NCBI GenBank assembly: GCA_937884605.1
Contig: CALGDM010000030.1
Location: 1-64,000 of the forward strand
Source of the DNA: an uncultured Spiribacter sp.
GTDB taxonomy: Bacteria; Pseudomonadota; Gammaproteobacteria; Nitrococcales; Nitrococcaceae
Direction: 5' to 3'
Length of the DNA stretch: 64,000 nucleotides
The notes under the pieces were generated by a model. It did not search any database. It worked only from the letters and a program-made list of their open reading frames with translations, and was not told the origin of the DNA. The translations under genes were made by a program, and so were the position numbers. Positions 48,686-64,000 of the stretch are shown here, piece after piece. Within the stretch, counting starts at the first letter, position 1; each line of letters starts with the position of its first letter.

Positions 48686-48731
48686 GGGACAGGCACGAAA
48701 TGGGCGGTTCGAAAAACTTCGGGACAGGCAC
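48686..48731 (+). repeat. GGGACAGGCAC repeat, copies 2 and 3 (direct pair)
   Basis: Exact copies at 48686-48696 and 48721-48731, 35 bases apart, between the exporter and the convergent rhodanese gene. The first is in the context GGTTTGGGACAGGCACGAA and follows a GTAG by seven bases. The second is one arm of a hairpin. Confidence 0.9.
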
Positions 48732-48746
48732 GAAGCCTGCCCCGAA
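48718..48746. terminator. Hairpin built on repeat copy 3
   Basis: TTCGGGACAGGC (48718-48729) pairs with GCCTGCCCCGAA (48735-48746), 11 of 12 pairs, around ACGAA. Read on the minus strand it is followed by GTTTTT, so it could terminate the rhodanese operon. It is the only copy of the repeat with a full inverted partner. Confidence 0.65.
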
Positions 48747-48755
48747 AATCAGCGC

Positions 48756-49709
48756 TTACTCGCCGATGACCAGCGAGCGGTTGCCGTCCAGGGTCCACTC
48801 GTGGAGTGAGCCGTCGTAAAGCGCCACATCGGGGCGATCCGCAATTTCCGAGACACCAAACCATGCCAGCGAAGAGACATGGCCGGAGTTGCAGTAGTTG
48901 ATGATCGACCCGTCGACCCCCGGCAGCATCGAGGCGACAACCTCCCGGGCGGCCTCCGGCGAGCGCCAGTAGACAATCCCGTCGCGCGGCGCAACGAACA
49001 TTGTGAACGGAAGCGGGCGCGCCCCGGGCAGATGACCGCTGCCATCGACGTAGTCCTTGCTCATCTGACCGGTGAACTGCACCAGTGGCCGGTTATCCAC
49101 CAGTTGCGCCGACGACTCGCCATCGATCACCGCCGAGACCTCCTGGGTGCTTGCCAGCAGATCCTCGCGCGGGGTTCCGGCGGTGTAATTACCATTGGCG
49201 GCCGATCCCGGCGACTCTGCCACTTCGCCCCCGGCGGCATCCCAGGCCGCAGCGCCGCCATCAAGGATCGCGACATTGTCATGACCGAAATACTTAAGCT
49301 GCCAGTAAAATCGCGAGGCCACGGTGGCATCGCCGTATACGGTATCGCCGGCCGGGGCGATGATAACGGTGTCGTCGTTATCCACACCCAGGCCCTGCAT
49401 GACCGTCTCGAACGTCTCGGCAGAGGGCGCCAGATAGCGGATAGTGTCCTTCATCCCCGGTCGCTCCGAGAGAAACTCCGACATTCCGACGAACGGCGCA
49501 CCGTCCACGAACCCGGTGGCATCGTAGTTGGACGGACGCCGCGAGACATTGATCAGCGTGACCTCATCCTGATGGGCCAGCGCCCAGTCCGCATCGACCA
49601 CCGGCCCCGGCAGATTCACCGACCCGGTATCCTGCGCCACAACGGCAGCAGGCAGGGCAACGGCAACGCCAAGCGCCGCTGCATGGAGTGATTGACGGAT
49701 TGTCATCAT
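48756..49709 (-). CDS. Periplasmic two-domain rhodanese sulfurtransferase
   Basis: 317 residues. A signal peptide (LHAAALGVAVALPAAVVA) is followed by two rhodanese domains. The first, inactive one contains TLINVSRRPSNYDATGFVDGA; the second has the persulfide cysteine in INYCNSGHVSSLAW and LPGARPLPFTMF. It transfers sulfane sulfur in the periplasm, for instance from thiosulfate or to cyanide. The ATG at 49709 follows GAGG; ATG 49706 and GTG 49715 are alternatives. It is the last gene of the DUF2892-DsrE-rhodanese run. Confidence 0.9.
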   Translation of the reverse strand: MMTIRQSLHAAALGVAVALPAAVVAQDTGSVNLPGPVVDADWALAHQDEVTLINVSRRPSNYDATGFVDGAPFVGMSEFLSERPGMKDTIRYLAPSAETFETVMQGLGVDNDDTVIIAPAGDTVYGDATVASRFYWQLKYFGHDNVAILDGGAAAWDAAGGEVAESPGSAANGNYTAGTPREDLLASTQEVSAVIDGESSAQLVDNRPLVQFTGQMSKDYVDGSGHLPGARPLPFTMFVAPRDGIVYWRSPEAAREVVASMLPGVDGSIINYCNSGHVSSLAWFGVSEIADRPDVALYDGSLHEWTLDGNRSLVIGE

Positions 49710-49726
49710 CGTCACCTCATCAATCG

Positions 49727-50161
49727 CTAAAACGTGAATTCGCGAACCGCGGGATCTGCCACCAGCGCACCGATCGCCGGCGGCTGAGCGACGCCTACGC
49801 CGTCAATCAGATCGGCCTCGGTGTACTCGCGATTGGGCAGATAGATCGCACAGACATCCACCTGAACGCCGTTATTCACCAGCCGCTGGATCATCTGCGC
49901 CGGGCTGGCGTCGGGACCGCGGAGGATCTCCGAGTCATCCGCTTCGGAGCCGACGGCCAGATCACCGGCATCATCACAGAGCAGCACCTGCGGGGACGCG
50001 CCGTTTTTCTGCGCCTGCATGGTCAGAATCAGCGCCATGGCCTGAGTCTCGTCGTCATCGCTGGTGAGGATGGACAGCATGTCCGGCCCGCTCTGAGCAA
50101 GCGCCGCGGCCGAAAAAACCGTCAGCACCAGGCCGGCGAGCAGTTGTCGAATTGTGTGCAT
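49727..50161 (-). CDS. Periplasmic DsrE-family protein
   Basis: 144 residues. The signal peptide HTIRQLLAGLVLTVFSAAA (cleavage after LAQ) precedes a DsrE/DsrF-like fold with a nucleotide-free sulfur-relay pattern (MLSILTSDDDETQAMALILTMQ; VLLCDDAGDLAV; MIQRLVNNGVQVDVCAIYL; key residues only). The cysteine in VDVCAIY is at the position that carries persulfide in related proteins. It lies 17 bases upstream of the rhodanese, suggesting a sulfur-relay partnership. Confidence 0.82.
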   Translation of the reverse strand: MHTIRQLLAGLVLTVFSAAALAQSGPDMLSILTSDDDETQAMALILTMQAQKNGASPQVLLCDDAGDLAVGSEADDSEILRGPDASPAQMIQRLVNNGVQVDVCAIYLPNREYTEADLIDGVGVAQPPAIGALVADPAVREFTF

Positions 50162-50190
50162 GGGATCGCTCCTTTCTGGAAAGGGTTGGT

Positions 50191-50385
50191 TTACGCCTTG
50201 CGCGCGCAGGTGTTGAGGCCCAGCAGGCTGTACGCCGGGCAAGTGCTGAATACGGCGGTTGCGAGCGGGACCAGACCGATCCACCCCCAGGCCATGCCCG
50301 TGTTGAAAACCGCCAACGCGATCAGCGCGAGGCCGACAATGGCGCGCAGGGCACGGTCAACCGTCCCGACGTTCTGTTTCAGCAT
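50191..50385 (-). CDS. DUF2892 inner-membrane protein (YgaP-C-terminal-like)
   Basis: 64 residues with two membrane helices (RAIVGLALIALAVFN; WGWIGLVPLATAVFSTCPAYSLLG). It matches the DUF2892 family that is fused to rhodanese in YgaP and is often near sulfur genes. The CPAY cysteine and the C-terminal NTC are conserved features. AAGGAG precedes the ATG at 50385; the longer frame from 50460 runs into the promoter region. Confidence 0.85.
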   Translation of the reverse strand: MLKQNVGTVDRALRAIVGLALIALAVFNTGMAWGWIGLVPLATAVFSTCPAYSLLGLNTCARKA

Positions 50386-50462
50386 TGCGTTTCTCCTTAC
50401 AGTATTGGACTGCATCAGGTTTAATGACATCGACAGTAGGCGCCTCGGGGCGGCCTGCAATC

Positions 50463-50477
50463 AGTGATCAAGTCACA
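50463..50477. promoter_or_regulatory. Candidate Crp/Fnr-type operator
   Basis: AGTGATCAAGTCACA is a near-palindrome (GTGA and TCAC around five bases) that lies 20 bases before the Crp-family regulator and 78 bases before the divergent DUF2892-DsrE-rhodanese operon. It is a plausible site for the regulator encoded next to it. Confidence 0.45.
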
Positions 50478-50497
50478 AAGCACAGGCGGGCAATGCA

Positions 50498-51184
50498 GTG
50501 AAAGACCGCGACGAGACCGCGATCGCCGACAATCGACTGTTCGATGCGCTGGATGAGAGCACCTGGAAGCGGGTGATCGAAGGGGGCAAGCGCCTGACGA
50601 TGCCCGCGGGCACGCCGGTCTTTGCCCCGGGCGACGAATGCCAGGGCCTGCCGCTGGTCATCGAGGGTGAGATCCGGGTGCAGATGATCGGCGCGTCAGG
50701 GAACGAAATCGTGCTCTACCGCATCCAAGGGGGCGAGATGTGTCCGCTTTCACTGGGCTGTCTCTTGTCCCGGAACAGTCACCAGTCCGAAGCGGTCGTG
50801 GAAAAGGATAGCGAAGTGTTGGTTCTGCCGCCGGCGCTGACGACACAGCTGATGGACGAGGCGGTGAGCTTCCGCCAAGCGATACTCGAGAGTTATGGCC
50901 AGAGACTGCAGTCGCTGATGCTGGTGATCGAGGAAGTCGCCTTCCGGCGGCTCGACGAGCGACTTGCTGAAAAGCTTGTCGAACGTCAATCTAACGGGCA
51001 ATTATCCGTCACTCATCAGGATCTTGCGGTAGAATTAGGGTCGGCTCGCGAAGTCGTCAGTCGACTCCTTAAAGAGTTCGAACGTCGCGGGTTTGTTCAT
51101 CTCGAGCGCGGCTGCATCACGATCAGCGACCGCAAGGCGCTTGATCGGGTTCGCGGTGCCACCGCGCGTGAGACGACCGCATGA
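50498..51184 (+). CDS. Crp/Fnr-family regulator, likely for sulfur/bd oxidase genes
   Basis: 228 residues. A cyclic-nucleotide-binding fold (LPLVIEGEIRVQMIGASGNEIVLYRI; key residues G-E-I-R, G-E) is followed by the helix-turn-helix DLAVELGSAREVVSRLLKEFERRG. A pair of cysteines in MCPLSLGC lies just after the beta roll, the form seen in Crp-family proteins adjacent to rhodanese/DUF2892 genes; persulfide or redox sensing is a reasonable guess. The start is the GTG at 50498. It faces the sulfur operon and precedes cydABDC by 50 bases. Confidence 0.83.
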   Translation: MKDRDETAIADNRLFDALDESTWKRVIEGGKRLTMPAGTPVFAPGDECQGLPLVIEGEIRVQMIGASGNEIVLYRIQGGEMCPLSLGCLLSRNSHQSEAVVEKDSEVLVLPPALTTQLMDEAVSFRQAILESYGQRLQSLMLVIEEVAFRRLDERLAEKLVERQSNGQLSVTHQDLAVELGSAREVVSRLLKEFERRGFVHLERGCITISDRKALDRVRGATARETTA

Positions 51185-51234
51185 ATAAGACGCGGAGGGC
51201 CGCGTTTTAAGTTGGTAAGCCAGAGGCAAGCGTC

Positions 51235-52656
51235 ATGGAATTCGATCCCGTACTGATATCACGGCTACAGTTCGCCTTCGTGGTGTCATTTCACGCCATC
51301 TTCCCGGTGTTCACCATCGGTCTGGCGTCCTACATCGCGCTCCTCGAGGGGCTGCACTTCAAGACCGGTAATCCGGCCTGGGCACAACTCTCGCGGTTCT
51401 GGACCAAGGTCTTTGCCGTTGCATTCGGCATGGGCGTGGTCTCCGGGATCGTGATGTCGTTCCAGTTCGGAACCAACTGGAGCAACTTCTCCCAGGCGTC
51501 AGCGAACTTCCTTGGGCCGATTCTCAGTTACGAGGTGGTCACTGCATTCTTCCTGGAAGCCGCCTTTCTGGGTGTACTGCTGTTCGGCCGCGACAAGGTC
51601 CCGCGGGGCACCCATCTGTTCGCCGCCTGCATGGTGGCGCTGGGCACCTTTGTGTCGGCGTTCTGGATCCTGGTCGCCAACAGCTGGATGCATACGCCGG
51701 CGGGCGCCGAATTCCGTGACGGCATCCTCCATGTAACGAGCTGGACGGAAGCGATCTTCAACCCGTCCTTCCCGTATCGGTTCACACACATGGCCGTTGC
51801 CAGCTTCCTCACCGGCAGCTTCGTGGTGGCGGGTGTCAGCGCCTGGTATCTGCTCAAGGGTCATAAGGTCGAGGCCAACAAAAAGGCCCTGTCCATGTGT
51901 CTGTGGATGATCCTGTTCCTGGCACCGGCCCAGGCCGTGATCGGCGACTTCCACGGGCTCAACACGCTTGAATACCAGCCGACCAAGCTGGCAGCCATGG
52001 AAGGCAACTGGGAGACCCAGTCGAACGCGCCCCTGCTGCTGTTCGCGCTGCCCAGCAAGGACGCCCAGGGCAATCTGTTCGAGGTGGGCATCCCCAATCT
52101 GGCCAGCATCATTCTGACCCACCACGCCGATGGCGTTGTGCCGGGCATCAGCGAGGCGTCGGCGGCGGAGCAGCCACCCGTCTCCATCGTGTTCTGGTCA
52201 TTCCGCGCCATGGTGGGCATCGGCTTTCTGATGATCGCCTTTGGCATTTGGGGGCTGGTACTGCGTCTGCGGCGCCAGCTCTATGAGCCGGGACTGTTTC
52301 ATCGCACGCTGCCGTTCATGATTGCCGCGCCCTTCATTGCCGTGGTGGCCGGCTGGGTGACCACCGAGTCGGGCCGTGCGCCATGGCTTGTCTACGGCAT
52401 GGTCAGCTTTGCCGAGGGTGTCACGCCCTCGCTGACCGGCTGGATGGCAGTGGTCAGCCTGATTGGCTACATGGCGGTCTACGCCGTGGTCTATGCCGCG
52501 GGCGGTTACTACCTCTGGCAGGTGGTCAAGGGCGGAATGGATGAGTCCGAGCCCGGCAGCGACGAGGTCGGCGCCCATCCCAAGCGTCCGCTCTCCGGTG
52601 GCGGTCCCATCGGCGATGCGACGCCCGCGGCACCGCTGAAAGGGGACTGGACATGA
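51235..52656 (+). CDS. cydA: Cytochrome bd-type ubiquinol oxidase subunit I (cyanide-insensitive type)
   Basis: 473 residues with about nine membrane segments. The haem ligand histidines lie in VVSFHAIFPVFTIG near residue 19 and YRFTHMAVASFL. The quinol loop has LNTLEYQPTKLAAMEGNWET with its Lys and Glu but is short, which is the CioA form rather than the long-loop E. coli form. It reduces oxygen to water with quinol electrons, with high affinity and resistance to cyanide and sulfide. The next gene overlaps by four bases. Confidence 0.95.
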   Translation: MEFDPVLISRLQFAFVVSFHAIFPVFTIGLASYIALLEGLHFKTGNPAWAQLSRFWTKVFAVAFGMGVVSGIVMSFQFGTNWSNFSQASANFLGPILSYEVVTAFFLEAAFLGVLLFGRDKVPRGTHLFAACMVALGTFVSAFWILVANSWMHTPAGAEFRDGILHVTSWTEAIFNPSFPYRFTHMAVASFLTGSFVVAGVSAWYLLKGHKVEANKKALSMCLWMILFLAPAQAVIGDFHGLNTLEYQPTKLAAMEGNWETQSNAPLLLFALPSKDAQGNLFEVGIPNLASIILTHHADGVVPGISEASAAEQPPVSIVFWSFRAMVGIGFLMIAFGIWGLVLRLRRQLYEPGLFHRTLPFMIAAPFIAVVAGWVTTESGRAPWLVYGMVSFAEGVTPSLTGWMAVVSLIGYMAVYAVVYAAGGYYLWQVVKGGMDESEPGSDEVGAHPKRPLSGGGPIGDATPAAPLKGDWT

Positions 52657-53651
52657 TCGACTTTACAATGGTCTGGGCGGTCATCATCGCCTTTGGCGTG
52701 ATCATGTATGTGCTCATGGACGGCTTCGATCTGGGTGTGGGGATCCTCTATCCCCTCGCTCCAGACGAGGAATCGCGCGATATCATGATGAACACCGTCG
52801 CCCCGTTCTGGGACGGCAACGAAACCTGGCTGGTCCTTGGCGGCGCCGGGCTGCTGGGGGCTTTTCCACTGGTCTACTCGGTGTTGCTCCCGGCGCTGTA
52901 TCTGGGCGTGTTCCTGCTGCTTGCCGGATTGATTTTCCGCGGCGTGGCGTTCGAATTTCGATTCAAGGCCAGCCGTGAGCGCAAGCACTTCTGGAGCGTG
53001 GCCTTCGCGGGCGGTTCGGCCGTCGCTGCGCTGGCACAGGGCATCGTTGTGGGGTCCTACATCCAGGGCTACCAGACCGAGAACATGGTCTACACCGGCG
53101 GGGCCTTCGACTGGCTGACACCATTCACGCTGCTGACGGGTGTCGGGCTGCTGGTTGGTTATGCGCTGCTTGGCAGCACCTGGATCATCATGAAAACCGA
53201 GGGGCCCGTCCAGGACTGGGCCTATCGCATCGCCCCCAAGCTGCTCGCCGGTGTGCTGGGGATCTTTCTGATCATCAGCTTCTGGACGCCACTGGTCGAC
53301 GAGTTTGTCCGCGAGCGCTGGATGAACACCCTGTCGCTCATCTGGCTGCTGCCCGCGGGCGCGCTGGGCTGTGCCTACATGGTGCTACGGGCGGTACGGC
53401 GACGCGACGAAGGCATCCCGTTTGTCGCCACCATGGGGCTTTTCGTCTTCACCTATCTGGGCCTGCTCGCCAGTAAATGGCCCTATGTCGTGCCGCCGGA
53501 CTACACGCTCTATGACGCGGCCTCAGCGCCCGAGTCGCAGGCATTCCTGCTGGTGGGTGTGCTGTTTGTCATTCCGGTGGTGCTTGCCTACACCGCGTGG
53601 ACCTACTGGGTGTTTCGCGGCAAGGTCCGTGCCGGCGAGGGCTACCACTAG
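52653..53651 (+). CDS. cydB: Cytochrome bd-type ubiquinol oxidase subunit II
   Basis: 332 residues and about eight membrane segments. The CydB opening MVWAVIIAFGVIMYVLMDGFDLGVGIL (key residues D-G-F-D-L-G) is followed by NTVAPFWDGNETWLVLGG and FRGVAFEFRFK. It supports the haem-bearing subunit. The gene overlaps cydA by four bases. Confidence 0.95.
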   Translation: MIDFTMVWAVIIAFGVIMYVLMDGFDLGVGILYPLAPDEESRDIMMNTVAPFWDGNETWLVLGGAGLLGAFPLVYSVLLPALYLGVFLLLAGLIFRGVAFEFRFKASRERKHFWSVAFAGGSAVAALAQGIVVGSYIQGYQTENMVYTGGAFDWLTPFTLLTGVGLLVGYALLGSTWIIMKTEGPVQDWAYRIAPKLLAGVLGIFLIISFWTPLVDEFVRERWMNTLSLIWLLPAGALGCAYMVLRAVRRRDEGIPFVATMGLFVFTYLGLLASKWPYVVPPDYTLYDAASAPESQAFLLVGVLFVIPVVLAYTAWTYWVFRGKVRAGEGYH

Positions 53652-53654
53652 CGA

Positions 53655-55334
53655 ATGACACCCAGGGAATGGCTGGCCCGGCAACGCCGTGAGGTGTCCG
53701 GGCCACTCCGGTTGGCCGCGGTATACGGAATCGCCGAAGGGGGGTTGATTATCGCGCAGGCCGGGCTGATCGCCTGGCTGGTTCAACAGGTGGTCATTCA
53801 CCAACGCCCCCTTGTCGAGTTCATGATTGCCGGCTTGATGCTGGTCGGCGTTGTCGGTCTGCGGCCAGTCTTTGCTTCGCTACGGGCCGGGGCGGGTATC
53901 TCGGCCGCCGCGCAGGTGCGGGCGGCGGTTCGCCGGCGCCTGATCCACCACGTGGAATCCCTGGGTCCCGCCGGACTGGCGGACATCGGCAGCGGCGAGC
54001 TCAGCAGTCAACTGACCGATCAGGTGGACGCCCTCGAGGGCTATTTCGCGCGCTACGTCCCGCAAATGACCATTGCGGTGATCGTTCCGGCGGCCATCGT
54101 TGCAGCCGCCTATACCCAGGACTGGATCGCCGCGAGCTTTCTGCTGCTGTCGGCGCCGCTCATCCCGCTTTTCATGGCGCTGGTCGGCATGGGCGCCGAG
54201 CGTCTCAACCGGGATCAATTCCTCGCGCTCGGCCGTCTGTCAGGGCAATTTCTGGACCGCGTCCGGGGGCTGACTACGCTACGGTTGTTTGGTCGTACCG
54301 AGGATGCGGCCGCCGGCATCGTCTCGGGCTCGGACGAATACCGGCAACGCAGCATGCGCGTGCTGCGGGTCGCCTTCCTCTCATCCGCGGTGCTCGAATT
54401 CTTTGCCTCGGTGGCCATCGCCGTTGTCGCCATTTATATCGGCTTTGGACTGCTCGGCTATATCGAGTACGGCCCCTCCACACAGCTCACGCTTTTCAGC
54501 GGCCTGTTCATCCTCTTGCTCGCCCCGGAATTCTTCCAGCCCCTGCGAACGCTCGCCCAGCACTACCACGACCGCGCCACCGCCCTCGGCGCCGCCGAGC
54601 TTCTCAACGAACTCGAAGCCCGGCCGGTGGAGGGGGAAAAGTTTGGGACAGGCACGTTGCGAGGGGAGTCGACGGAGGTAGAAAAGTTTGGGACAGGCAC
54701 GTTGCGGATGACCGACCTGCGCCTGGATCGGGTTGGGCGCGGGACCATTCTGCGGGTCGATGCCTTTCGCGCGGATGCCGGCGCGCGGGTGCTGATCGAA
54801 GGCCCTTCGGGTACTGGCAAGACGTCACTGCTACTCGCCATCGCCGGCCTTCTGCCGGTGGCTGAAGGCACGATCGAGCGGCGGTTTTCGGACTCGCGGA
54901 TCGGTTGGCTTGGCTCGCCGCCTTTTCTGGCTAATGCCAGCATCCGCGCCAATATCCGCTTTGGTGATCCCGCCGCGGATGACTCGGCCATCCTCGACGC
55001 CGCCCGCCAGGCCGGGGTCATGGAATTCACCGGTCGTCTTGATCAGGGCCTGGATACGGTCGTTGGCGAGCGAGGGCTTTCGCTATCAGGGGGACAGGCA
55101 CAACGCGTTGCCCTGGCCCGCGCACTGATTTCACCGGCACCGATGATATTGCTCGATGAACCGACCAACGCGCTGGACGCGACAACGGAAGACTATGTCC
55201 TGAAGGCCATCAACACGCTCGCGGCCGAGGGCCGTGTGGTTGTGATCAGCAGCCATGATGCAGCACTGCGGGGAATCGCCGATCAGCGCTATCACATCAC
55301 CGATCAGCGGCTCGAGATGATTGGCAATGAATGA
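53655..55334 (+). CDS. cydD: ABC exporter subunit CydD, with repeat-encoded insert in the linker
   Basis: 559-residue ABC transporter half needed to mature bd oxidase (exports cysteine/glutathione or handles haem). The membrane domain spans about residues 1-310. The ATPase has Walker A EGPSGTGKTS, signature LSLSGGQAQRVALARAL, Walker B MILLDEPTNALD and H-loop ISSHDA. The linker at about 325-355 contains two peptides EKFGTGTLR, 15 residues apart, encoded by a tandem pair of the GGGACAGGCAC repeat. The signature codons GGA-CAG-GCA also spell the repeat. The gene overlaps cydC by eight bases. Confidence 0.93.
   Translation: MTPREWLARQRREVSGPLRLAAVYGIAEGGLIIAQAGLIAWLVQQVVIHQRPLVEFMIAGLMLVGVVGLRPVFASLRAGAGISAAAQVRAAVRRRLIHHVESLGPAGLADIGSGELSSQLTDQVDALEGYFARYVPQMTIAVIVPAAIVAAAYTQDWIAASFLLLSAPLIPLFMALVGMGAERLNRDQFLALGRLSGQFLDRVRGLTTLRLFGRTEDAAAGIVSGSDEYRQRSMRVLRVAFLSSAVLEFFASVAIAVVAIYIGFGLLGYIEYGPSTQLTLFSGLFILLLAPEFFQPLRTLAQHYHDRATALGAAELLNELEARPVEGEKFGTGTLRGESTEVEKFGTGTLRMTDLRLDRVGRGTILRVDAFRADAGARVLIEGPSGTGKTSLLLAIAGLLPVAEGTIERRFSDSRIGWLGSPPFLANASIRANIRFGDPAADDSAILDAARQAGVMEFTGRLDQGLDTVVGERGLSLSGGQAQRVALARALISPAPMILLDEPTNALDATTEDYVLKAINTLAAEGRVVVISSHDAALRGIADQRYHITDQRLEMIGNE
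54645..54700 (+). repeat. GGGACAGGCAC repeat, copies 4 and 5 (in-frame pair in cydD)
   Basis: Exact copies at 54645-54655 and 54690-54700 are 45 bases apart. Each lies in GAAAAGTTTGGGACAGGCAC followed by GTTGCG, so about 26 bases are duplicated. Both are read as FGTGTL. Confidence 0.9.
55091..55101 (+). repeat. GGGACAGGCAC, copy 6 (ABC signature codons of cydD)
   Basis: Exact 11-mer formed by the codons of the conserved SGGQAQ signature, so the peptide is native while the codon choice matches the repeat. Confidence 0.7.
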
Positions 55335-57075
55335 GCTAAAGCCTTATCTGAGGATGCTCAAACGCTACCGGGGTCGACTGATCCTTGGTGCGGTCCTGAT
55401 GTTCGTGACCAGTGCGTCGGGGATTGGGCTACTTGCTCTGTCTGGATGGTTCATCACGGCAACCGCCATCACCGGAGCGCTGATTGCAGCCGGTGTCGCG
55501 GCCACCCTCGAGATCTACATCCCCGGGGGCGGTATCCGGACTTTCGCGGTGTCCAGAACCGTTGCGCGCTATTTCGAGCGAATCTTTAACCATGACACGG
55601 TACTCCAGCTTTTGCGCGACCTGCGTGGGCGTGTCTTCACCCTGCTGAGTCGTCTCAATCCGGCCGAAATGGCGCGCCTGCGGAGCGGCGAACTGCTCAA
55701 CCGGCTGACCACCGATATTGATCGCCTCGATGGGCTTTACCTGCGCGGCCTTTCGCCACCGGTCGTCGCACTGCTGGCGATTCTGCTCGTCGGCGCTCTA
55801 CTTGCAATCGGCGCCCCCTGGCTTGGCGGACTGGTAATCGTGGTTTTAACGGCGATGGCGGGCGGTGCGCTGTGGATGGCATGGCATACCGGCCAGCAAC
55901 TCACGCAAGAGGTGGCGACATCCTCCGCTGCGCTTCGGGCGAGCGCCATGGATCACGTCACCGGACTCTCAGAGCTGACCGCCTTTGGCAGCCTCGAGTA
56001 TCATCGCCGGGCAGTCCTGGAGGCCGATGAACAGGCCCGTCAGCGGGATGAACGGATTGCCAAGCGCATGGCCTATGGCGAATCCATCCTCAATAGCGGT
56101 GTCCATTTGACCGCCGTACTGGTCTTGCTCACCGCCCTGCATCTTTTTCAGACGGATCAAACCAGCGGCCCGGTCGCCGTGATGATGCCCCTCGCCGTGC
56201 TGGCGTTGCTCGAACCGCTCGGCGTCCTCCCCGCCGCCGGCCTCCAGCTCGCCCGCGCCCGCGCTTCCGCGCAGCGGTTGAGCAATGGGACAGGCACAAT
56301 CGATGAGCCGTCGGCGAGCAATGGGACAGGCACAAACCAACCCTCCCGCGACGCCACCAGAGCCGTGGATCGACCCGCCGAAGTGGGCCAGCGTACCGAC
56401 GGCCTTAGGCACGCGCCAACTGTCGCCATCGATGCTGTGTCGCTGGTGCGCGGAGCGGGTGCCCGCGTCCTCGACAATCTGCGCCTGGATGTGTCGCCTG
56501 AAGAGACCGTCGGCATTATCGGTGTCTCAGGCTGTGGAAAGTCCAGCATCGCAGCCATGATTGCCGGCCAGATCGAAGCGGATAGCGGCACGATCGAGGT
56601 TGATGGAACACCGATCGGGGCATTCGATCTAGACGCTCTCTATCCGGATATCGCCTATCTCACCCAGCAGACCGACCTTTTCAGCGGCTCATTCGCCGGA
56701 AACCTCCGCATCGCCGACCCGGACGCCGATGAGCCCGCCATGTGGGCGGCATTGCAGAGCGTTCAGCTTGACGCATTCGTGGCGTCCACAGATCAAGGCT
56801 TGCACACCTGGGTGGGCGAGTCGGGCATGGAGCTATCAGCGGGACAGGCACGACGTCTTGCACTGGCGCGGCTTTTCATGCGCAATCCCAAACTTGTCAT
56901 CCTTGATGAGCCATTGACCGGTCTGGACGAGGAGACCGCCGAGGCTGTCTCGGCGAGCCTCTCCGAATGGCTGTCGGCGCGGACCGCGATCGTCCTCGGC
57001 CACGGACCGGAATCGCTGCCCCGCGTTGATCGGCGGCTACTGCTGCGCGCGGGCGCGCTGTCCGACGACGACTAG
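55327..57075 (+). CDS. cydC: ABC exporter subunit CydC, with repeat-encoded insert in the linker
   Basis: 582-residue partner of CydD. The membrane domain spans about 1-315. The ATPase has Walker A IGVSGCGKSS, Q-loop TQQTDLFSGS, signature ELSAGQARRLALARLF (Ala in place of the first Gly), Walker B LVILDEPLTGLD and H-loop position VLGHGPES. The linker carries ASNGTGT and SNGTGTNQ, encoded by two repeat copies 36 bases apart, and the AGQARR codons contain another exact copy. I chose the ATG at 55327; a TTG two codons earlier is possible. Confidence 0.93.
   Translation: MNELKPYLRMLKRYRGRLILGAVLMFVTSASGIGLLALSGWFITATAITGALIAAGVAATLEIYIPGGGIRTFAVSRTVARYFERIFNHDTVLQLLRDLRGRVFTLLSRLNPAEMARLRSGELLNRLTTDIDRLDGLYLRGLSPPVVALLAILLVGALLAIGAPWLGGLVIVVLTAMAGGALWMAWHTGQQLTQEVATSSAALRASAMDHVTGLSELTAFGSLEYHRRAVLEADEQARQRDERIAKRMAYGESILNSGVHLTAVLVLLTALHLFQTDQTSGPVAVMMPLAVLALLEPLGVLPAAGLQLARARASAQRLSNGTGTIDEPSASNGTGTNQPSRDATRAVDRPAEVGQRTDGLRHAPTVAIDAVSLVRGAGARVLDNLRLDVSPEETVGIIGVSGCGKSSIAAMIAGQIEADSGTIEVDGTPIGAFDLDALYPDIAYLTQQTDLFSGSFAGNLRIADPDADEPAMWAALQSVQLDAFVASTDQGLHTWVGESGMELSAGQARRLALARLFMRNPKLVILDEPLTGLDEETAEAVSASLSEWLSARTAIVLGHGPESLPRVDRRLLLRAGALSDDD
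56287..56333 (+). repeat. GGGACAGGCAC repeat, copies 7 and 8 (in-frame pair in cydC)
   Basis: Exact copies at 56287-56297 and 56323-56333, 36 bases apart, each in GAGCAATGGGACAGGCACAA and read as NGTGT in the linker between membrane and ATPase domains. Confidence 0.9.
56841..56851 (+). repeat. GGGACAGGCAC, copy 9 (ABC signature codons of cydC)
   Basis: Exact 11-mer within the codons for the signature SAGQAR, as in cydD. Confidence 0.7.
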
Positions 57076-58150: not shown

Positions 58151-58166
58151 GAGGTTTGAGAGGTTT

Positions 58167-58206
58167 GGGACAGGCACGTTGTCTTTGAGAGGTTTGGGAC
58201 AGGCAC
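58167..58206 (+). repeat. GGGACAGGCAC repeat, copies 10 and 11 (direct pair before the hydrolase)
   Basis: Exact copies at 58167-58177 and 58196-58206, 29 bases apart, each within GAGAGGTTTGGGACAGGCAC followed by GTTGTC. They fill most of the 87-base spacer between the dehydrogenase and the hydrolase, just upstream of the latter's ribosome site. Confidence 0.9.
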
Positions 58207-58237
58207 GTTGTCGGTCCTAAGCAAAAGGAGAAAAACC

Positions 58238-59008
58238 ATGCGTTACATCTTTCATTCGATGAGTGCGGCAGCTCTTCTGGCAATGACGCCCGCAATCGCT
58301 CAAGCAGAAATCGTGACTGAGACTGTTCGTTACAGCCACGGCGATCAGGCTTTCGAGGGCTATGCGGCTTACAACAGCGCCCTTGGCGAGGAGCAGCCGA
58401 CAGTCATCATCATCCATGACTGGGACGGTCTGGGGGATTATGAAAAAGCACGGGCCGAGATGCTCGCTCAGGCGGGTTACGCGGCTTTTGCGGTCGACTT
58501 GTTCGGCGAGGGCGTCCGCCCGGAGAGCATTGAGCGACGCCGTGAACTGACTAACGCTCTTTACGCCGACCGCGACCGCATGCGCGCACTCATGGAGGCA
58601 GGATTGGGCGCCGCCGGTGATCAATCAGCGATCGACATCGACACTGCGGTCGCCATCGGATACTGCTTCGGGGGCGCCGCAGCGCTCGAATGGGCCCGCG
58701 CTGGTTCGGATCTGGAAGGTTTCGTGTCCTTTCACGGCGGCCTGGGGACGCCCGATGGACAAAGCTATGAGCAAGTACAGGCTCCCTTGCTGGTTCTCCA
58801 TGGCAGCAATGACCAGATCGCTCCGATGAGCGCTGTCGCTGATCTCGCCACAAGGCTGGACGAGGACGGCGTCGACTATGACATGGAGATTTACGGTGGT
58901 GCGCGTCATGCCTTCACCGACTGGCACGCCAGCGAGCGATACGACGCCGACGCCGACCTTAAATCCTGGGCCGCGATGATGGATTTTTTGGGACAGGCAC
59001 TTAATTAG
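58238..59008 (+). CDS. Exported dienelactone hydrolase-family protein
   Basis: 256 residues. The signal peptide RYIFHSMSAAALLAMTPAI (cleavage after AQA) precedes an alpha/beta hydrolase of the DLH type with nucleophile cysteine IGYCFGGAA, aspartate in LHGSNDQIAP and histidine in GARHAFTD. AAAGGAG precedes the ATG at 58238. The C-terminus FLGQALN and the stop are encoded by a copy of the GGGACAGGCAC repeat, so the original end of the protein may have been replaced. Its substrate is unknown. Confidence 0.87.
   Translation: MRYIFHSMSAAALLAMTPAIAQAEIVTETVRYSHGDQAFEGYAAYNSALGEEQPTVIIIHDWDGLGDYEKARAEMLAQAGYAAFAVDLFGEGVRPESIERRRELTNALYADRDRMRALMEAGLGAAGDQSAIDIDTAVAIGYCFGGAAALEWARAGSDLEGFVSFHGGLGTPDGQSYEQVQAPLLVLHGSNDQIAPMSAVADLATRLDEDGVDYDMEIYGGARHAFTDWHASERYDADADLKSWAAMMDFLGQALN
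58990..59000 (+). repeat. GGGACAGGCAC repeat, copy 12 (hydrolase C-terminus)
   Basis: Exact copy in the last codons of the hydrolase gene, read as L-G-Q-A-L and followed two codons later by the stop. Confidence 0.88.
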
Positions 59009-59058
59009 GGGGCCTGACGACAACGGTACAGCCGACTGACCGCCGCCGGGGGCGACGT

Positions 59059-59877
59059 TCAGCGTTGGCAACCCGGGCAGTACACGGTGGCGCGCTGGCC
59101 AAGGCGGCTTGTGCGCAACGCCCGCCCGCAGCGCGTGCAGGGTTGTCCGCCTCGTCCGTAGGCATCCAGGGATTGCTTGAAGTAGCCCGGCTGGCCGTCA
59201 CTGCGGCTGAAGTCGCGAAGGGTCGTGCCTCCCGCTTCGATCGCCTCGCCAAGCACCGCCCGAATCGTGTCAGCGAGGTGCTCAAATCGCTTCCGGGACA
59301 CCCGGCCGGCAGCACGTGCCGGGTGGATGCCGGCACGAAACAAGGCTTCGGTCGCGTAGATGTTCCCGACACCAACGACAATGTGACTGTCCATGATGAA
59401 CGCTTTCACCGCCAACCGTCGGCTCCCGGCACGAGCATACAGATAAGCACCATCAAACCCAGCATCGAAAGGCTCCGGGCCCAGTGAGCGAAGCAGGGAG
59501 TGGGACTCGGCAGGCTCCTCGGTCAGGTGAATGCTTCCAAACCGCCTTGGGTCATGAAACCGCAGACAGCAATCCTCGCCCAGGATCAGGTCGACATGGT
59601 CATGCTTCAGGGGCGGGGTCTCTGGCGCGACCACTCTAATGTAGCCGGACATTCCCAGATGCAGCATCAGCGCGCTGTCTGAGTCGAGGCGCATGATCAG
59701 GTATTTGCCACGACGGTCGAGTTGCCATACTCGGCTCCCGACGACCGTCGTCGCCAATTCGGCGGGGACCGGCCAGCGTAGTCTCGACTCCCGAACAACG
59801 GCTCGATCGATGACCCGCCCAACGCAATAAGGCTCGAGCCCCCGGCGTGTAGTCTCGACTTCAGGTAGTTCGGGCAT
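59059..59877 (-). CDS. mutM: Formamidopyrimidine-DNA glycosylase MutM (Fpg)
   Basis: 272 residues. The PELPEVET N-terminus (Pro2 nucleophile, Glu3) is intact. The lysine in LDRRGKYLI, the H2TH stretch DSHIVVGVGNIYATEALF (key residues V-G-N-I-Y-A-E) and the four-cysteine zinc finger (CTRCGRALR, YCPGCQR) are all present. It excises 8-oxoguanine and formamidopyrimidines. It is convergent with the hydrolase gene and follows rpmB-rpmG on the same strand behind a terminator. Confidence 0.96.
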   Translation of the reverse strand: MPELPEVETTRRGLEPYCVGRVIDRAVVRESRLRWPVPAELATTVVGSRVWQLDRRGKYLIMRLDSDSALMLHLGMSGYIRVVAPETPPLKHDHVDLILGEDCCLRFHDPRRFGSIHLTEEPAESHSLLRSLGPEPFDAGFDGAYLYARAGSRRLAVKAFIMDSHIVVGVGNIYATEALFRAGIHPARAAGRVSRKRFEHLADTIRAVLGEAIEAGGTTLRDFSRSDGQPGYFKQSLDAYGRGGQPCTRCGRALRTSRLGQRATVYCPGCQR

Positions 59878-59908
59878 CAGGCCGCCCCCGCTCAGGGTCG
59901 ATCGGGCA

Positions 59909-59935
59909 TAAAAAAGCCCGCTCTCAGCGGGCTTT
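59909..59935 (-). terminator. Rho-independent terminator after rpmB-rpmG
   Basis: Read on the minus strand, AAAGCCCGC, loop TGAGA and GCGGGCTTT form a nine-pair hairpin ending in a run of Ts. It lies 22 bases after the rpmG stop. Confidence 0.9.
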
Positions 59936-59957
59936 GAGTCTGCGCATTGCGAGACCC

Positions 59958-60113
59958 TTATTTGATCTTGGCTTCCTTGTAGACCACGTGCTTGCGCACA
60001 ACCGGGTCGTACTTGCGGAATTCCAGTTTGTGGGGCGTATTCCGACGGTTTTTGTCCGTCGTGTAGAAGTGCCCCGTCCCGGCGGATGATACGAGTTTGA
60101 TCTTATCGCGCAT
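59958..60113 (-). CDS. rpmG: 50S ribosomal protein L33
   Basis: 51 residues of normal length ([21 protein letters not shown] opening and [17 protein letters not shown] end). It belongs to the cysteine-free, zinc-independent form. It follows rpmB by seven bases. Confidence 0.97.
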
Positions 60114-60120
60114 GACTACC

Positions 60121-60357
60121 TCAGACCTTTTCGCCGCGGCTGCGCAGATCCGATACAACCTGCTCAATGCCGAGTTTATCGATGAGCCGCATCCCTTTGC
60201 TGGAGATCCGCAGCCTTACCCAACGGCTCTCGCTCTCAAGCCAGAACCGATGATAGCGCAGGTTGGGCAGGAAGCGCCGGCGCGTCTTGTTGTTGGCATG
60301 TGAGACGTTGTTTCCGGTCATCGGGCGCTTGCCGGTGACCTGACAGACTTTGGCCAT
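60121..60357 (-). CDS. rpmB: 50S ribosomal protein L28
   Basis: 78 residues of normal length ([33 protein letters not shown]). It is the zinc-free form. GAGGG precedes the ATG at 60357. The promoter must lie in the 172-base spacer towards the divergent dnaJ-like gene. Confidence 0.97.
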
Positions 60358-60510
60358 TTGGCCCTCCCGAAATCCGTTACCGAGCTGATGCGCAACTGCG
60401 CTCACTGAGCCGTGTTTTATACCAGCATCGATGCGACGCTGCAATGCTGTGGACGCCTTACTCCTTGAATTTGCTCCGGGAAAACACAAGGTCTATGGGA
60501 TATCAGGTTT

Positions 60511-60521
60511 GGGACAGGCAC
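60511..60521 (+). repeat. GGGACAGGCAC repeat, copy 13 (immediately before the DnaJ-like start)
   Basis: Exact copy in GGTTTGGGACAGGCACAA, ending nine bases before the ATG, so it forms part of the translation-initiation region. Confidence 0.88.
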
Positions 60522-60529
60522 AAAAAGGC

Positions 60530-61504
60530 ATGGAGTATCAGGATTACTACAAAACCCTTGGCGTCAACCGGGATGCTTCGGCCGACGAGATCAAGAAGGC
60601 ATACCGCCGACTTGCGCGTCGCTACCACCCGGACGTAAGCGAGGAGCCGGATGCAGAAGCCCAGTTCAAGCGGATAGCCGAGGCGTACGAGGTCCTGAAA
60701 GACCCTGAAAAGCGCAAGCTATATGATCAGCTCGGCGAAAACTGGCAAGCGGGACAGGAGTACTCGCCACCGCCGGGCGGCCAACGCACTGGATCCAGGA
60801 CAGCCTCAGGCTTTAGCAGCAGCGGCGACTTTGGTGACTTCAGCGATTTCTTCGAAAGCATCTTTGGCCGTGGCGCAGCTGGTGGCTTCAGCGATCCCTT
60901 CAGCGGGTTCCGTCAACAACAGGGACCGGATTGGGACAGGCACCAAAACGCTCAGGGCCGCGACGTCAGCGCTGAGCTCGAGGTCGACCTGGAAGACGCC
61001 TACAAGGGCGCAACGAGGACGGTCAGCTTCAACGCAACAGGACAGGCACAATCTCGGCGCCGTGAACTCAAAGTCAAAATCCCGGCCGGCGTCACCGACG
61101 GCCAAAGGATACGGCTAAAGGGTCAGGGCGAGGCCTCGCCTGTTGGTGGGGAAAACGGGGATCTTTTGATCAGGATCCTGATCAAGCCCCACCGCCACTT
61201 CCAGCTGGACGGCAAGGACGTCCATCTGACGCTTCCGGTCGCTCCGTGGGAGGCGGCGCTGGGCGCAACAGTGGCAGTACCGACGCTCGGAGGAAAGGTT
61301 GAGCTGAACATCCCCGCCGAGAGCCAGAGCCAGAAGCGACTGCGGCTGAAGGGGCGAGGGATGCCCGGGAAACCCCCAGGTGATCAGTATGTAAACCTCG
61401 TGATCGTCAATCCGCCGGCCAAAACGCAGGAGGCAAAGGCGGCTTTCGAATCGTTCCGGGAGGCTTTTGATTTCGATCCACGAGCTAACCTACGCTCGCA
61501 TTGA
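60530..61504 (+). CDS. DnaJ/CbpA-type co-chaperone
   Basis: 324 residues. An N-terminal J domain with HPD in [11 protein letters not shown] is followed by a G/F-rich stretch (about 85-145) and the CTDI/II domains ([29 protein letters not shown]). There is no cysteine zinc finger, which is the CbpA form; it stimulates DnaK. The start sits just behind a repeat copy with only a weak AAAGG ribosome site. Inside the gene a repeat is read as DWDRHQ (60933), a one-mismatch copy as ATGQAQ (61039) and a partial copy as AGQE (60751). The gene overlaps the convergent transposase by 20 bases. Confidence 0.9.
60933..60943 (+). repeat. GGGACAGGCAC repeat, copy 14 (inside the DnaJ-like gene)
   Basis: Exact copy read in the third frame (W-D-R-H) between the G/F region and CTDI. 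The related sites 60751-60758 (first eight bases) and 61039-61049 (AGGACAGGCAC) lie in the same gene. Confidence 0.88.
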
Positions 61505-62498
61505 AGTCATCTCTCGTTTTAAGGAAAAGACCAGCGGCGCTGCGATAACCCCTGACGTAGCGTCGCCCGAACTGCCGCGCCAGTCCTGACAGACTGCCGG
61601 CATCGCCGAGCACGGCCTGGCGATAGTGCCTCTGCCCCGTCACGAATTCCACCAGCCCCCGAGCCGCGAGACCTAGCCGTTCAGCGATGGGCGGCATTTC
61701 CGCGGCAATCACCGCAGCACCAGGCTTGGCCATATGGCGTCCGGACCAGTCGAGTAGCTCCAGGTACTCGAACTTCTCACCGGGGAGAGCCCCCGCGCCC
61801 GCCTCGATGTCGGTCCCGGCGAACGGCATAATCATCGGCTCCGAGACCACGTCGGTCCCTGTGGCGACATTCTTGAATCGTTGAATGGCCGAGCAGTCAC
61901 GCCCCGCTTCCGGTCGGTCTACCATCCCGGCGCGCAGCGGGTTGAGATCGACATAGGTCATGGCGGCGAGCAGTGCGCCTTCATCCGCCAGCGCCTGAGA
62001 GCGATACCGACCCTGCCAGAAGTGGCCTGTAACACCATCCTCGTGATTGGCGCGACGAGCGATGGGCTCGTTCAGGCAGCGCATGAACCAGGGAATACTC
62101 ATCAGGCGTGAACGATATCCCTCAATCACCAGACGCATCGCCGGATGGGGCGTCGCGGATTCGCCCGCGTTCACGAACTCGTGCATCCATGCCGGGCCCC
62201 GAAAGACCCGTAACCAGCGCTTAATCACCTCTCGAGGCTGCAAGGCGCGAGCCTCACTCTCGTTAACGCGCACCACGAGATGATAGTGATTGGACAGGAC
62301 TGCGTAGGCACACAGGTCAATCGCGAACACATCAACAAGGTGGGCGAGCCGTGCTTTGATCCACTCGCGTCGATGCGAGTAGTCCTGACCGGTAAGCGAA
62401 TCTTTTCCGCATAGAAACTGCCGGCGCACGCACCGGGAAACGAGGTGATAGTACGGCGTCGCCTCGAGCGAGATCTGATTGCGTCGCGGTTGCCCCAT
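61485..62498 (-). mobile_element. IS200-like Y1 transposase, REP-associated type (TnpA-REP/RAYT)
   Basis: 337-residue HUH-type single-strand transposase. The N-terminal RNQISLEATPYYHLVSRCVRR is the Y1 opening, and the metal-binding HxH is in LSNHYHLVVRVN. The candidate catalytic tyrosine region is IEGYRSRLMSIPWFMRCLNEPI, with HFWQGRYRSQAL and YVDLNPLRAGMV after it. The long C-terminal part is normal for this subgroup. I start it at the ATG at 62498; the frame stays open to 62741, where a repeat copy supplies a GTG in antisense. No flanking inverted repeats or target duplications are seen. It is the likely partner of the GGGACAGGCAC repeats. Confidence 0.88.
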
Positions 62499-62730
62499 CC
62501 CTGGTCTGCTCCTCGACGGCCTGTGCAAGCGTTTTAGGAAAAAGGTGGAAACAGCCGCTGGCCGCGGTGCCTGGCGTCCTTTCCTCGACCGCGTCGCCAG
62601 CGACTGCCCACGACTGAAGTGTCTCCGAGAAACGCATTGATCGCCAGCCCGATCCGCCCCTGAGCGCCCGAACGGGAGCAACCGCCCGACGAGCGGCAAA
62701 ATCAACGGGCTCGGTGAGCAAGAGATTATT

Positions 62731-62741
62731 GGGACAGGCAC
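62731..62741 (+). repeat. GGGACAGGCAC repeat, copy 15 (upstream of the transposase)
   Basis: Exact copy in ATTATTGGGACAGGCACAAA, 233 bases before the chosen start of the minus-strand transposase gene. Confidence 0.88.
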
Positions 62742-62923
62742 AAACCCGGGCCGAAACGCACGTCGCTGTGACCTGACTGCGCCGGGTCGAAGCCTGGGGA
62801 AGAAAGAAAAAGGAGGAAAGGTGACCAGCCGCCAGTCCGGGGATAAATCAGCGTCCCTGCTGCCAAGTCCGTCGGCCCAGCGGCTGGTCGATTAAAAGTA
62901 TCCATGTAGACGGGAAGCATTGG

Positions 62924-62945
62924 TATCCCCCATATGAGGGGGGTA
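62924..62945. promoter_or_regulatory. CCCCC/GGGGG palindrome
   Basis: TATCCCCC and GGGGGGTA flank a central ATATGA, giving a near-perfect inverted repeat. Such TACCCC-type palindromes are used by LuxR-type response regulators; no such regulator is in the window, so this is only a candidate operator for the gene at 63093. Confidence 0.4.
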
Positions 62946-63001
62946 GCGCTAAACTTGTCGCATTCAAGCAAAGTCCTTAGGGTTTCAGTAGAATCAAGTT
63001 T

Positions 63002-63012
63002 GGGACAGGCAC
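63002..63012 (+). repeat. GGGACAGGCAC repeat, copy 16
   Basis: Exact copy in AAGTTTGGGACAGGCACGTT. A GTAG tetranucleotide ends ten bases before it. It lies 80 bases before the methyltransferase start. Confidence 0.88.
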
Positions 63013-63092
63013 GTTGGAAGAGCGCTCTTTACCGCCCATTGTCAGACGTCCCCTAAACCCCAGATCATGTCGATACTCATAGGTTTATCTCG

Positions 63093-63755
63093 ATGACCGA
63101 CGTCAACCTCGCAACGGCGCGAGACAACATGGTGGAGCAGCAGCTGCGCACGTGGGAGATCCTCAACGAGCGCGTGCTCGAGGTGATGCACAGAATGCCG
63201 CGCGACCGCTTCACGCCGAGTGCATTTGCCAATCTCGCGTATGCCGACATGCAGATACCGCTCGATCACGATCAGGTAATGCTTGAGCCCAAGGTAATCG
63301 GTCGTATGCTCCAGGCACTTGACCCGCAGCCGAATGAGCGTGCGCTGGAGATCGGCACCGGGACCGGTTATCTGACAGCTTGCCTCGGGGAGATGGCCGC
63401 GGATGTCACCAGTGTGGACCTATACCCGGAATTCACCGAGCTCGCGGGCTCCAACCTGAAAAAGCAGGCCATCGAGAACAATCGCCTCGAGACGGGGGAT
63501 GCAGCGATGGGGTGGGATGATGGCCGTCGCTACGATGTCATCGCGGTGACCGGCTCCTTGCCGGAACTCCATCAGGGATTTCACCGCAGCCTGACCCAGG
63601 GCGGCCGGCTATTTCTGATCGTCGGACAGCCCCCGATCATGGAAGCAGTTCTGATTACGCGAGTCAGCGACGATCAGTGGGCTCGCGAGAGCCTTTTCGA
63701 CACAAGTGCGCCGGCTCTCGTCGGAGCGCCCGTCACCCATAGCTTTGCGGTCTGA
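63093..63755 (+). CDS. Protein-L-isoaspartate O-methyltransferase family protein
   Basis: 220 residues. The PCMT opening ARDNMVEQQLRTWEILNERVLEVM (key residues R-M-V-Q-L) is followed by the SAM motif ALEIGTGTGYLTACLGEM, VTSVDLYPEF and YDVIAVTGSLPELH. True repair enzymes have the same fold; the divergent substrate loop (PLDHDQVMLEPKVIGRMLQAL) is typical of the subgroup found near tolC-like or rhodanese genes. It is followed after 19 bases by a rhodanese gene. Confidence 0.87.
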   Translation: MTDVNLATARDNMVEQQLRTWEILNERVLEVMHRMPRDRFTPSAFANLAYADMQIPLDHDQVMLEPKVIGRMLQALDPQPNERALEIGTGTGYLTACLGEMAADVTSVDLYPEFTELAGSNLKKQAIENNRLETGDAAMGWDDGRRYDVIAVTGSLPELHQGFHRSLTQGGRLFLIVGQPPIMEAVLITRVSDDQWARESLFDTSAPALVGAPVTHSFAV

Positions 63756-63774
63756 CCAAGACCACAGCGGATTG

Positions 63775-64000
63775 ATGCCTTGCTGACGATTACGCCGAGG
63801 GAATTGCACGAGCAGCTGACAATGGGACAGGCACGTTTCACCCTGCTCGACGTCCGCGAAGATTGGGAAACGCAGATCAACCATCTCGAAGGCAGTGTGT
63901 TCGAGCCCATGAGCCGCATTGACGCAAGCCTTGCTCAGCGAGTCCCTGTGGATCGGGACATTGTCGTTATCTGCCACCACGGCGTTCGAAGCGCTCAGGT
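63775..64000 (+). CDS. Rhodanese-like domain protein (5' part, cut by window edge)
   Basis: 75 codons are visible from the ATG at 63775. LTITPRELHEQL, then LLDVREDWETQINHLEGSV and the active-site loop VVICHHGVRSAQ identify a single-domain cytoplasmic rhodanese with its catalytic cysteine. Between the first helix and LLDVRE the peptide TMGQARF is encoded by an exact copy of the GGGACAGGCAC repeat. The gene runs past position 64000. Confidence 0.88.
63825..63835 (+). repeat. GGGACAGGCAC repeat, copy 17 (inside the last rhodanese gene)
   Basis: Exact copy read as M-G-Q-A-R, where related proteins usually have a short glutamate/glycine turn. Confidence 0.85.

Follow-up and report, generated by a model that had tools for sequence, protein, structure and literature searches.

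A gene-centred array of a short DNA word, probably read by a TnpA_Y1-like protein, in Spiribacter

Introduction

Repetitive extragenic palindromes (REPs) are described, in the parts of two surveys available to us (PMC6006769, PMC3733652), as dispersed hairpins that lie mostly between genes. The same material describes TIRYTs (TIRtrons), Y1 proteins located between terminal inverted repeats, some of which share GGGGWSAS (Di Nocera et al. 2013, PMC3733652); they belong mostly to subclass 2.1 of the TnpA_Y1 classification (PMC6006769). Subclass 2.3 of that classification is listed as gammaproteobacterial, with NHYH, W[EQ] and YVDLNP motifs, a length of about 325 amino acids and extra domains, and the accessible part of the paper gives no REP-like DNA partner for it (PMC6006769). 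DNA uptake sequence (DUS) dialects of Neisseriaceae are short intragenic words that, according to the accessible part of PMC3630211, follow phylogeny and the reader protein, ComP; a genome that combines two dialects with a single comP is reported there. Here we analyse a stretch of DNA from an uncultured Spiribacter sp. (assembly GCA_937884605.1), in which copies of an 11-bp word, GGGACAGGCAC, cluster around a gene coding for a TnpA_Y1-like protein with HUH and tyrosine motifs (the tnpA_Y1-like gene). The stretch, hereafter the window, comprises the first 64,000 bases of the 78,075-base contig CALGDM010000030.1, and the rest of the contig was included in the analysis. We conclude that the copies are, with high probability, recognition sites of the local HUH/tyrosine protein that are maintained at the DNA level.

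Results

The window contains 17 exact copies of GGGACAGGCAC, all on the plus strand and none on the minus strand, against an expectation of 0.08 and a maximum of one copy in 100 dinucleotide shuffles. The repeat family reported by the first-pass annotation is thus real, but its last copy starts at 63824 rather than 63825, and it is not packed into 15 kb. The whole contig carries 36 copies (29 on the plus and 7 on the minus strand), 35 of which fall between 48686 and 77080, forming an array of 28 kb that runs past the window end and reaches ca. 13 kb to one side of the central gene and ca. 15 kb to the other. One-strandedness, which had been claimed for the family, describes the 17 window copies correctly, but not the cluster: all seven minus copies lie beyond the window, and in the interval 65.5-69.4 kb of the contig six copies out of seven are on the minus strand. 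The array looks one-stranded in the window because the window end cuts the cluster. Further array positions on the contig are 67112, 67622, 68161, 69478, 70298, 71188, 71507 and 71606.

The genome assembly of this organism (G000; 1.80 Mb in 30 contigs, 91% complete) holds 39 copies, 35 of them within 15 kb of the tnpA_Y1-like gene and four outside the array; the word read backwards, used as a control, occurs twice. An even genome-wide density, an outcome that would have refuted the first-pass annotation, was looked for and not found. In addition to the 35 exact sites, the array holds four sites with one mismatch and seven with two, and the density of the pattern GGACANNCA is 1.43 per kb in the array versus 0.12 in the rest of the contig. 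As the first-pass annotation had noted, copies occur within genes as well as between them (27 of the 35 array copies are intragenic by our own gene list). Paired copies are spaced 29-47 bp apart. The word is not palindromic and, by reading, contains no inverted repeat; its consensus at this place, aggTTTGGGACAGGCAC, lacks GTAG.

The central gene codes for a protein of 337 amino acids (the reading frame stays open farther upstream; M1 as given here is the start of the family). Its identification as a Y1 transposase stands, although the protein is diverged: it scored a weak, sub-threshold 18.6 bits against Pfam Y1_Tnp (cut-off 23) and 41 bits against NCBIfam REP_Tyr_transpos (cut-off 80), and a whole-genome profile search gave no match for the gene. 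The motifs NHYH, FWQG and YVDLNP are present, and residues H71, H73 and Y182 are invariant in all 84 aligned homologues. An AlphaFold2 model built from 53 sequences (predicted local distance difference test, 83.8; predicted template modelling score, 0.88) had a single PDB match with an E value of 0.001 or lower, 4er8, a REP-associated tyrosine transposase (RAYT; E 2.2e-4, TM score 0.29 by query length and 0.55 by target length). Judged by its motifs and length, which match the corresponding table row in PMC6006769, the protein fits the TnpA_Y1 subclass 2.3 type. The gene is under purifying selection: the ratio of nonsynonymous to synonymous divergence (dN/dS) was 0.08 in comparison with G012 (dS 0.74) and 0.14 for the pair G010-G019 (dS 0.66), dS being near saturation in more distant pairs.

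Thirteen other genomes of the genus Spiribacter were used for comparison. In six of them (G009, G010, G012, G013, G019 and G021) the gene occupies the same place, between cbpA or mutM and pcm and in the same gene order (locus I), and all seven genomes with the gene at locus I, G000 included, carry the array. The six genomes contain 37, 25, 36, 20, 22 and 35 copies of GGGACAGGCAC, respectively, and the other seven contain 0 to 4 copies each. Of these copies, 28 of 37 in G009, 29 of 36 in G012 and 21 of 25 in G010 are no more than 15 kb away from the gene.

Individual sites are conserved between species. Copies at 60933, 70298, 71188, 71507 and 71606 are found in all six aligned genomes, those at 67112 and 67622 in five of the six, G013 being the exception, and orthologous copies persist even though their flanks have diverged to 55-68% identity between species. 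In a count that took in 32 of the 35 array sites, the word was intact at 23 of 32 sites in G012, 23 of 29 in G009, 21 of 27 in G021, 13 of 32 in G010 and 15 of 32 in G019, while random 11-mers were kept exact in 23%, 5%, 5%, 3% and 3% of cases, respectively, and in 0.5% in G013. A control matched by flank identity was limited to ungapped sites, with those having fewer than 45 aligned flank bases dropped. Here, exact conservation was observed at 16 of 17 sites in G009 (0.80 expected), 15 of 17 in G021 (0.87), 9 of 18 in G010 (0.27), 11 of 20 in G019 (0.39) and 15 of 19 in G012 (4.09). Copies antisense to waaC (67112), kdkA (68161) and hldE (69478) are likewise conserved. A selected DNA signal, one of the two readings offered by the first-pass annotation, is supported by this conservation, which is far above the flank-matched expectation.

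A different picture is seen in relatives that lack the gene at locus I. In the same genes, GGACANNCA occurs at 0.16 per kb in G011, 0.00 in G020 (17 kb), 0.15 in G014, 0.10 in G015, 0.47 in G017 (17 kb) and 0.20 in G018, whose stretch of 5 kb covers part of the place only; the G000 array has 1.43 per kb. Conservation of the sites in relatives without the gene, which would also have refuted the first-pass annotation, was looked for and not found. The exact word is absent from these stretches in G011, G014, G015 and G020 and occurs once in G017, and a tblastn search of the gene-free stretches for the gene gave a best E value of 0.12. Of the eight GGACANNCA sites in the 17 kb of G017 (L130), which are of mixed words, one is the exact word, with GGGACAGCCAC nearby, and the stretch resembles a decaying array remnant.

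Five relatives without the gene at locus I have ordinary codons at the sites, usually without insertions or deletions. Among the 22 coding sites that aligned to at least one array-free relative, 17 showed no gap within the site and 15 of these none within five codons on each side, and most coding sites appear from these alignments to have been gained by base substitution. A single one of the 22 keeps the same peptide in array-free relatives, namely GGQAQ, the ATP-binding cassette (ABC) signature of cydD: the word is present there in G000, G012 and G019, and G011, G014, G015 and G020 use other synonymous codons. At both ABC signatures of the window, at 55091 (CydD) and 56841 (CydC), the codons that make up the word are not used by gene-free relatives. 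Some extra copies are short duplications in linkers and spacers: the partner copies at 48686, 56287 and 58196 are absent from G012, where these pairs are single. The second first-pass reading, a transposase-linked repeat, is therefore upheld in its linkage to the gene, the word being absent from the same genes without it, but not in its implication of insertion, since the sites are mostly not inserted repeats.

G014, G015, G017 and G018 carry a gene with 41-47% identity at a second shared place (locus II), each with a local array. The words differ. G014 has 79 copies of GGACACCCA, 51 of them in the last 62 kb around the gene; G015 has 41 copies of GGACAGACA, 34 of which lie within 35 kb; and GGACAGGCA totals 82 copies in G017 and 54 in G018. 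Words other than a genome's own are mostly infrequent: GGACAGACA is present in 4 or 5 copies in G000, G014, G017 and G018 and in 11 copies in G013, and GGACAGGCA in 10 copies in G014 and 19 in G015. G013 has genes at both loci, each with different words. On its contig C12, at least 75 of 117 copies of GGACAGGCA are found at 31.7-157 kb, around one gene, and 15 of 30 copies of GGACACCCA at 264-317 kb, around the other. Both strands are used about equally, with GGACANNCA counts around the gene (plus/minus) of 23/21 in G014, 19/18 in G015, 38/38 in G017, 30/32 in G018 and 33/33 in G013.

Word and genome covary at orthologous positions. Alignments of locus II yielded 108 site groups, of which 35 are common to at least two genomes; words differ at 22 of these shared positions, and at 13 of the 22 each genome bears its own word. 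Own-word cells numbered 53 out of 88, compared with a mean of 25 and a maximum of 38 in 10,000 permutations. The word is preceded in the arrays by GTAG in G017, TAG in G015, TTT at locus I and TAC in G014, the flanks in G017 and G015 being reminiscent of the foot of REP elements. A separate second patch with 19 copies of GGACACCCA is located in G014 (G014:C1:1677709-1697620), 19-39 kb from the gene.

Outside the genus, the best 80 of 558 loci were analysed, one Spiribacter locus being excluded from the counts at gene ends. Within 250 bp upstream of the gene, GGACASSCA was in the sense of the gene in 78 cases out of 78; within 500 bp downstream it was inverted in 56 cases out of 57 and in sense in the remaining one, and the reversed control gave 0 at gene ends. 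In these other Gammaproteobacteria, the two ends of the gene thus bear inverted copies of the word and are marked by it in the manner of terminal inverted repeats. A total of 87 own-word sites were found farther than 600 bp from the gene versus 4.9 expected, the reversed word giving 5 versus 5.4; this count used 57 of 79 loci, as 17 had no word in the expected orientation and 5 were too short. Further nearby copies of the element may add to such distant sites, as seems to be so in G023. There, GGACACCCA is densely repeated in tandem, in either orientation (G023:C14:72312-80342), possibly as several neighbouring elements or remnants. In five of six outside genomes GGACACCCA was more abundant than the reversed word (49-84 versus 7-17 in four of them, 21 versus 12 in G025). 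On a quick protein tree with long branches flagged, used for this count only, the word label changed 16 times, as against at least 26 times in 200 shuffles. L028, an 8-kb contig of a metagenome-assembled genome labelled Klebsiella pneumoniae, may be mis-binned; it carries the 11-mer twice as well as a relative of the tnpA_Y1-like gene.

Table 1. Location of the tnpA_Y1-like gene, the array and the exact word copies in the window.
Feature	Position	Strand	Remarks
tnpA_Y1-like gene	61488..62498	-	337 aa; HUH H71/H73, tyrosine Y182 (YVDLNP)
Array, window part	48686..64000	.	Continues to 77080 of the contig
Word copy in BCCT-type gene	35443..35453	+	Outlier 26 kb from the tnpA_Y1-like gene; may be chance
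Site, intergenic, past lysE-like gene	48686..48696	+	Paired with 48721; not in G012
Site, intergenic	48721..48731	+	Common to 5 of 6 aligned genomes
Site, cydD linker	54645..54655	+	Also in G012, G009, G021
Site, cydD linker	54690..54700	+	Also in G012, G009, G021
Site on cydD ABC signature (GGQAQ)	55091..55101	+	Also in G012 and G019
Site, cydC linker	56287..56297	+	Paired with 56323
Site, cydC linker	56323..56333	+	Paired with 56287
Site on cydC ABC signature (AGQAR)	56841..56851	+	Also in G012, G009, G021
Site ahead of dienelactone-hydrolase-like gene	58167..58177	+	Paired with 58196
Site ahead of dienelactone-hydrolase-like gene	58196..58206	+	Not in G012
Site, 3' end of dienelactone-hydrolase-like gene	58990..59000	+	Also in G012, G021
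Site ahead of likely start of DnaJ-like gene	60511..60521	+	Also in G012, G009, G021, G019
Site within DnaJ-like gene	60933..60943	+	Present in 6 of 6 aligned genomes
Site upstream of tnpA_Y1-like gene	62731..62741	+	
Site upstream of PCMT-like gene	63002..63012	+	
Site within rhodanese-like gene	63824..63834	+	

Discussion

The way the word is arranged at the ends of the gene in relatives from other genera suggests that the protein binds or nicks it. A likely account of the Spiribacter data as a whole is that the 35 sites form a local array that was written mostly by substitution into whichever genes surround the HUH/tyrosine gene, that purifying selection or biased conversion would hold the sites by acting on the DNA word and not on protein or RNA, and that the word would drift jointly with the protein, giving rise to lineage-specific dialects.

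Several observations weigh against this account. In each of the six Spiribacter genomes counted, GGACACCCA outnumbers the reversed word (24-79 copies versus 5-22); it has 24-40 copies in the five genomes other than G014 (40 in G015), and hence a raised base rate. The locus II array of G018 (L113-L114) mixes 22 copies of GGACAGGCA with 15 of GGACACCCA, and also holds 16 of AGACACCCA, around the one gene found in this 86% complete genome; perhaps the lineage is between two words, or a second gene was lost or is missing from the assembly. Array size varies from 28 kb in G000 through ca. 35 and 46 kb in G015 and G014, respectively, where it is lopsided, to ca. 125 kb in G013. G013, whose word differs, shares exact sites with G000 at 0 of 15 positions, and G010 and G019 have 13 one-mismatch sites each. 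The lean towards the sense strand of genes also differs between the loci, being clear at locus I (23:7 in G000) and slight or absent at locus II (15:12, 9:7, 19:14 and 9:9). As to a possible exchange of the segment between species, G012 is closest to G000 in gene identities throughout, and only gt4 stands out (72% in G010, 61% in G009). At 17 of the 79 loci outside the genus, no GGACANNCA oriented as expected lies within 600 bp, and G028 shows no excess of GGACACCCA (33 copies versus 33 of the reversed control). When enriched words were searched for de novo, one resembling GGACANNCA ranked in the first eight at just 19 loci out of 70 (0 of 70 for the reversed word), so most single outside loci show little beyond the gene ends. 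Finally, locality requires an extra assumption, linkage or cis action, because a freely diffusing DNA-binding protein needs no sites near its own gene.

There are two options, namely cis action of the protein, or sites that matter only when co-inherited with the gene; we lean, tentatively, to the second. It is conceivable, though we hold it with reserve, that a selfish segment of the chromosome is involved, in which the sites act as a private transfer-like signal confined by linkage and give DNA with the gene an advantage in transmission. A stationary HUH/tyrosine protein would read a word that selection or drive would have put dozens of times into the surrounding, largely housekeeping genes. 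It would be bound or covalently joined to single strands bearing the sites, and in neighbouring cells the stretch around the gene would be protected, transferred or integrated in preference to other DNA. A site would then be favoured only if linked to the gene, which would make the array resemble a DNA uptake sequence that is private and local, and diverging words might keep rival versions of the segment apart, as dialects do. Array lengths of 28 to ca. 125 kb fit transfer without proving it. The same is true of comEC, which is present in all 14 Spiribacter genomes (above the cut-off in 13) and is compatible with competence.

Among other explanations, the array may serve the host, the protein being a domesticated chromosome-organising, partition-like or regulatory factor and the sites a centromere- or operator-like cluster. 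We consider this unlikely. The fixed place and strong constraint of the gene and the conservation of sites on both strands, in and between genes, speak for it; two different chromosomal places bear arrays, however, the genes covered differ in function, and in G011, G016 and G020 the gene was not detected (with genomes 84, 74 and 86% complete, respectively, it may have been missed). ParB/parS is a system of this kind: its sites cluster, in part within genes, close to where the binding protein is encoded. Unlike parS, which is a palindrome associated with the origin region, the word described here is non-palindromic and tied to a gene at two places, and that gene codes for a Y1 protein.

It is also rather improbable that the protein is a cis-acting nuclease whose neighbouring sites absorb nicking as decoys or provide a multitude of alternative ends for the element. 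Transposases are known to prefer acting in cis, the inverted copies at both gene ends in relatives resemble element ends, and the own-word sites of the 57 outside loci scatter beyond 600 bp. On the other hand, the Spiribacter gene shows no sign of movement, since it holds the same place across species, both sides of the gene in the window carry plus-strand copies instead of inverted ends, and the ca. 125 kb of G013 is long for cis action.

A mobile REP-like repeat hopping locally from the transposase gene has a precedent in RAYT/REP (PMC6006769) and would agree with the 29-47 bp pairs, three of which (at 48686, 56287 and 58196) have just one copy in G012, a close relative. As the main origin of the sites it was rejected, and we regard it as very improbable: 17 of 22 coding sites are gap-free relative to array-free genomes, 15 of them including the flanking codons, positions are conserved between species despite diverged flanks, and shared positions bear different words in different genomes. 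We give a negligible probability to chance, to codon usage and to any signal spread over the whole genome, for example Chi or an uptake sequence: two copies do lie on ABC signatures, where the peptide already comes near the word, but only four copies occur outside the array in 1.8 Mb, the expectation is 0.08 per 64 kb, the reversed word occurs twice in the genome, and density is low in gene-free relatives. Two further candidates were discarded. A strand signal is contradicted by the minus copies beyond the window, the balanced GGACANNCA counts elsewhere and the small sense bias at locus II. A signal at the RNA level is disfavoured because the copies antisense to waaC, kdkA and hldE are kept and because locus II has little sense bias.

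The word offers a candidate DNA partner for Y1 subclass 2.3, for which the accessible part of PMC6006769 gives none. The likely target sites of a transposase-derived protein would here lie in housekeeping genes, having arisen mostly by substitution, and be kept for long, only near the gene. One genus provides a dozen array-bearing genes, whose words have three spellings or more, as a natural set of variants from which to read the specificity of the protein. They prompt the question of what kind of selection would favour target sites that are linked to their reader's gene, but not unlinked ones. In one open-access literature collection, with subscription papers and preprints outside the scope, none of the matches listed bears on the words, judged by title and abstract, and none holds the 11-mer.

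Compared with subclass 2.3 (Quentin et al. 2018, PMC6006769), the protein has the same motifs and length; the subclass appears in the accessible part of that paper without a REP partner, and here a non-palindromic word is found at gene ends in other genera and in long arrays in Spiribacter. The TIRYT motif GGGGWSAS resembles the GGGACAG and GGGACAC seen here, and inverted flanks of the TIRYT type are present in most relatives outside Spiribacter; in the window, plus copies lie on both sides of the gene. The available description of TIRYTs includes neither an intragenic local array nor words differing at orthologous sites (PMC3733652). RAYT/REP and REPIN systems likewise combine a Y1 protein with a cognate short sequence, and the AlphaFold2 model best matches the RAYT 4er8. 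Unlike REPs, the word is mostly intragenic, local and, it appears, mostly gained by substitution; by reading, the locus I word has no hairpin with a 5' GT[AG]G foot, and the distribution is not dispersed and extragenic, with 35 of 39 copies in 28 kb and 27 of 35 in genes. DUS number thousands per genome, whereas tens of sites are found here, near the gene of their presumed reader, a HUH protein, and genome-wide over-representation is replaced by four copies outside the array. The two-dialect genome with one comP, as reported in the accessible part of PMC3630211, parallels G018, with its two words and one gene found. Since the array departs from at least one defining trait of each of REP, TIRYT and DUS, only the protein, and not the array, is placed in a known family. 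Insofar as these systems are described in the sources available, DUS dialects appear closest to the array in behaviour, and RAYT/REP and TIRYT appear closest in protein.

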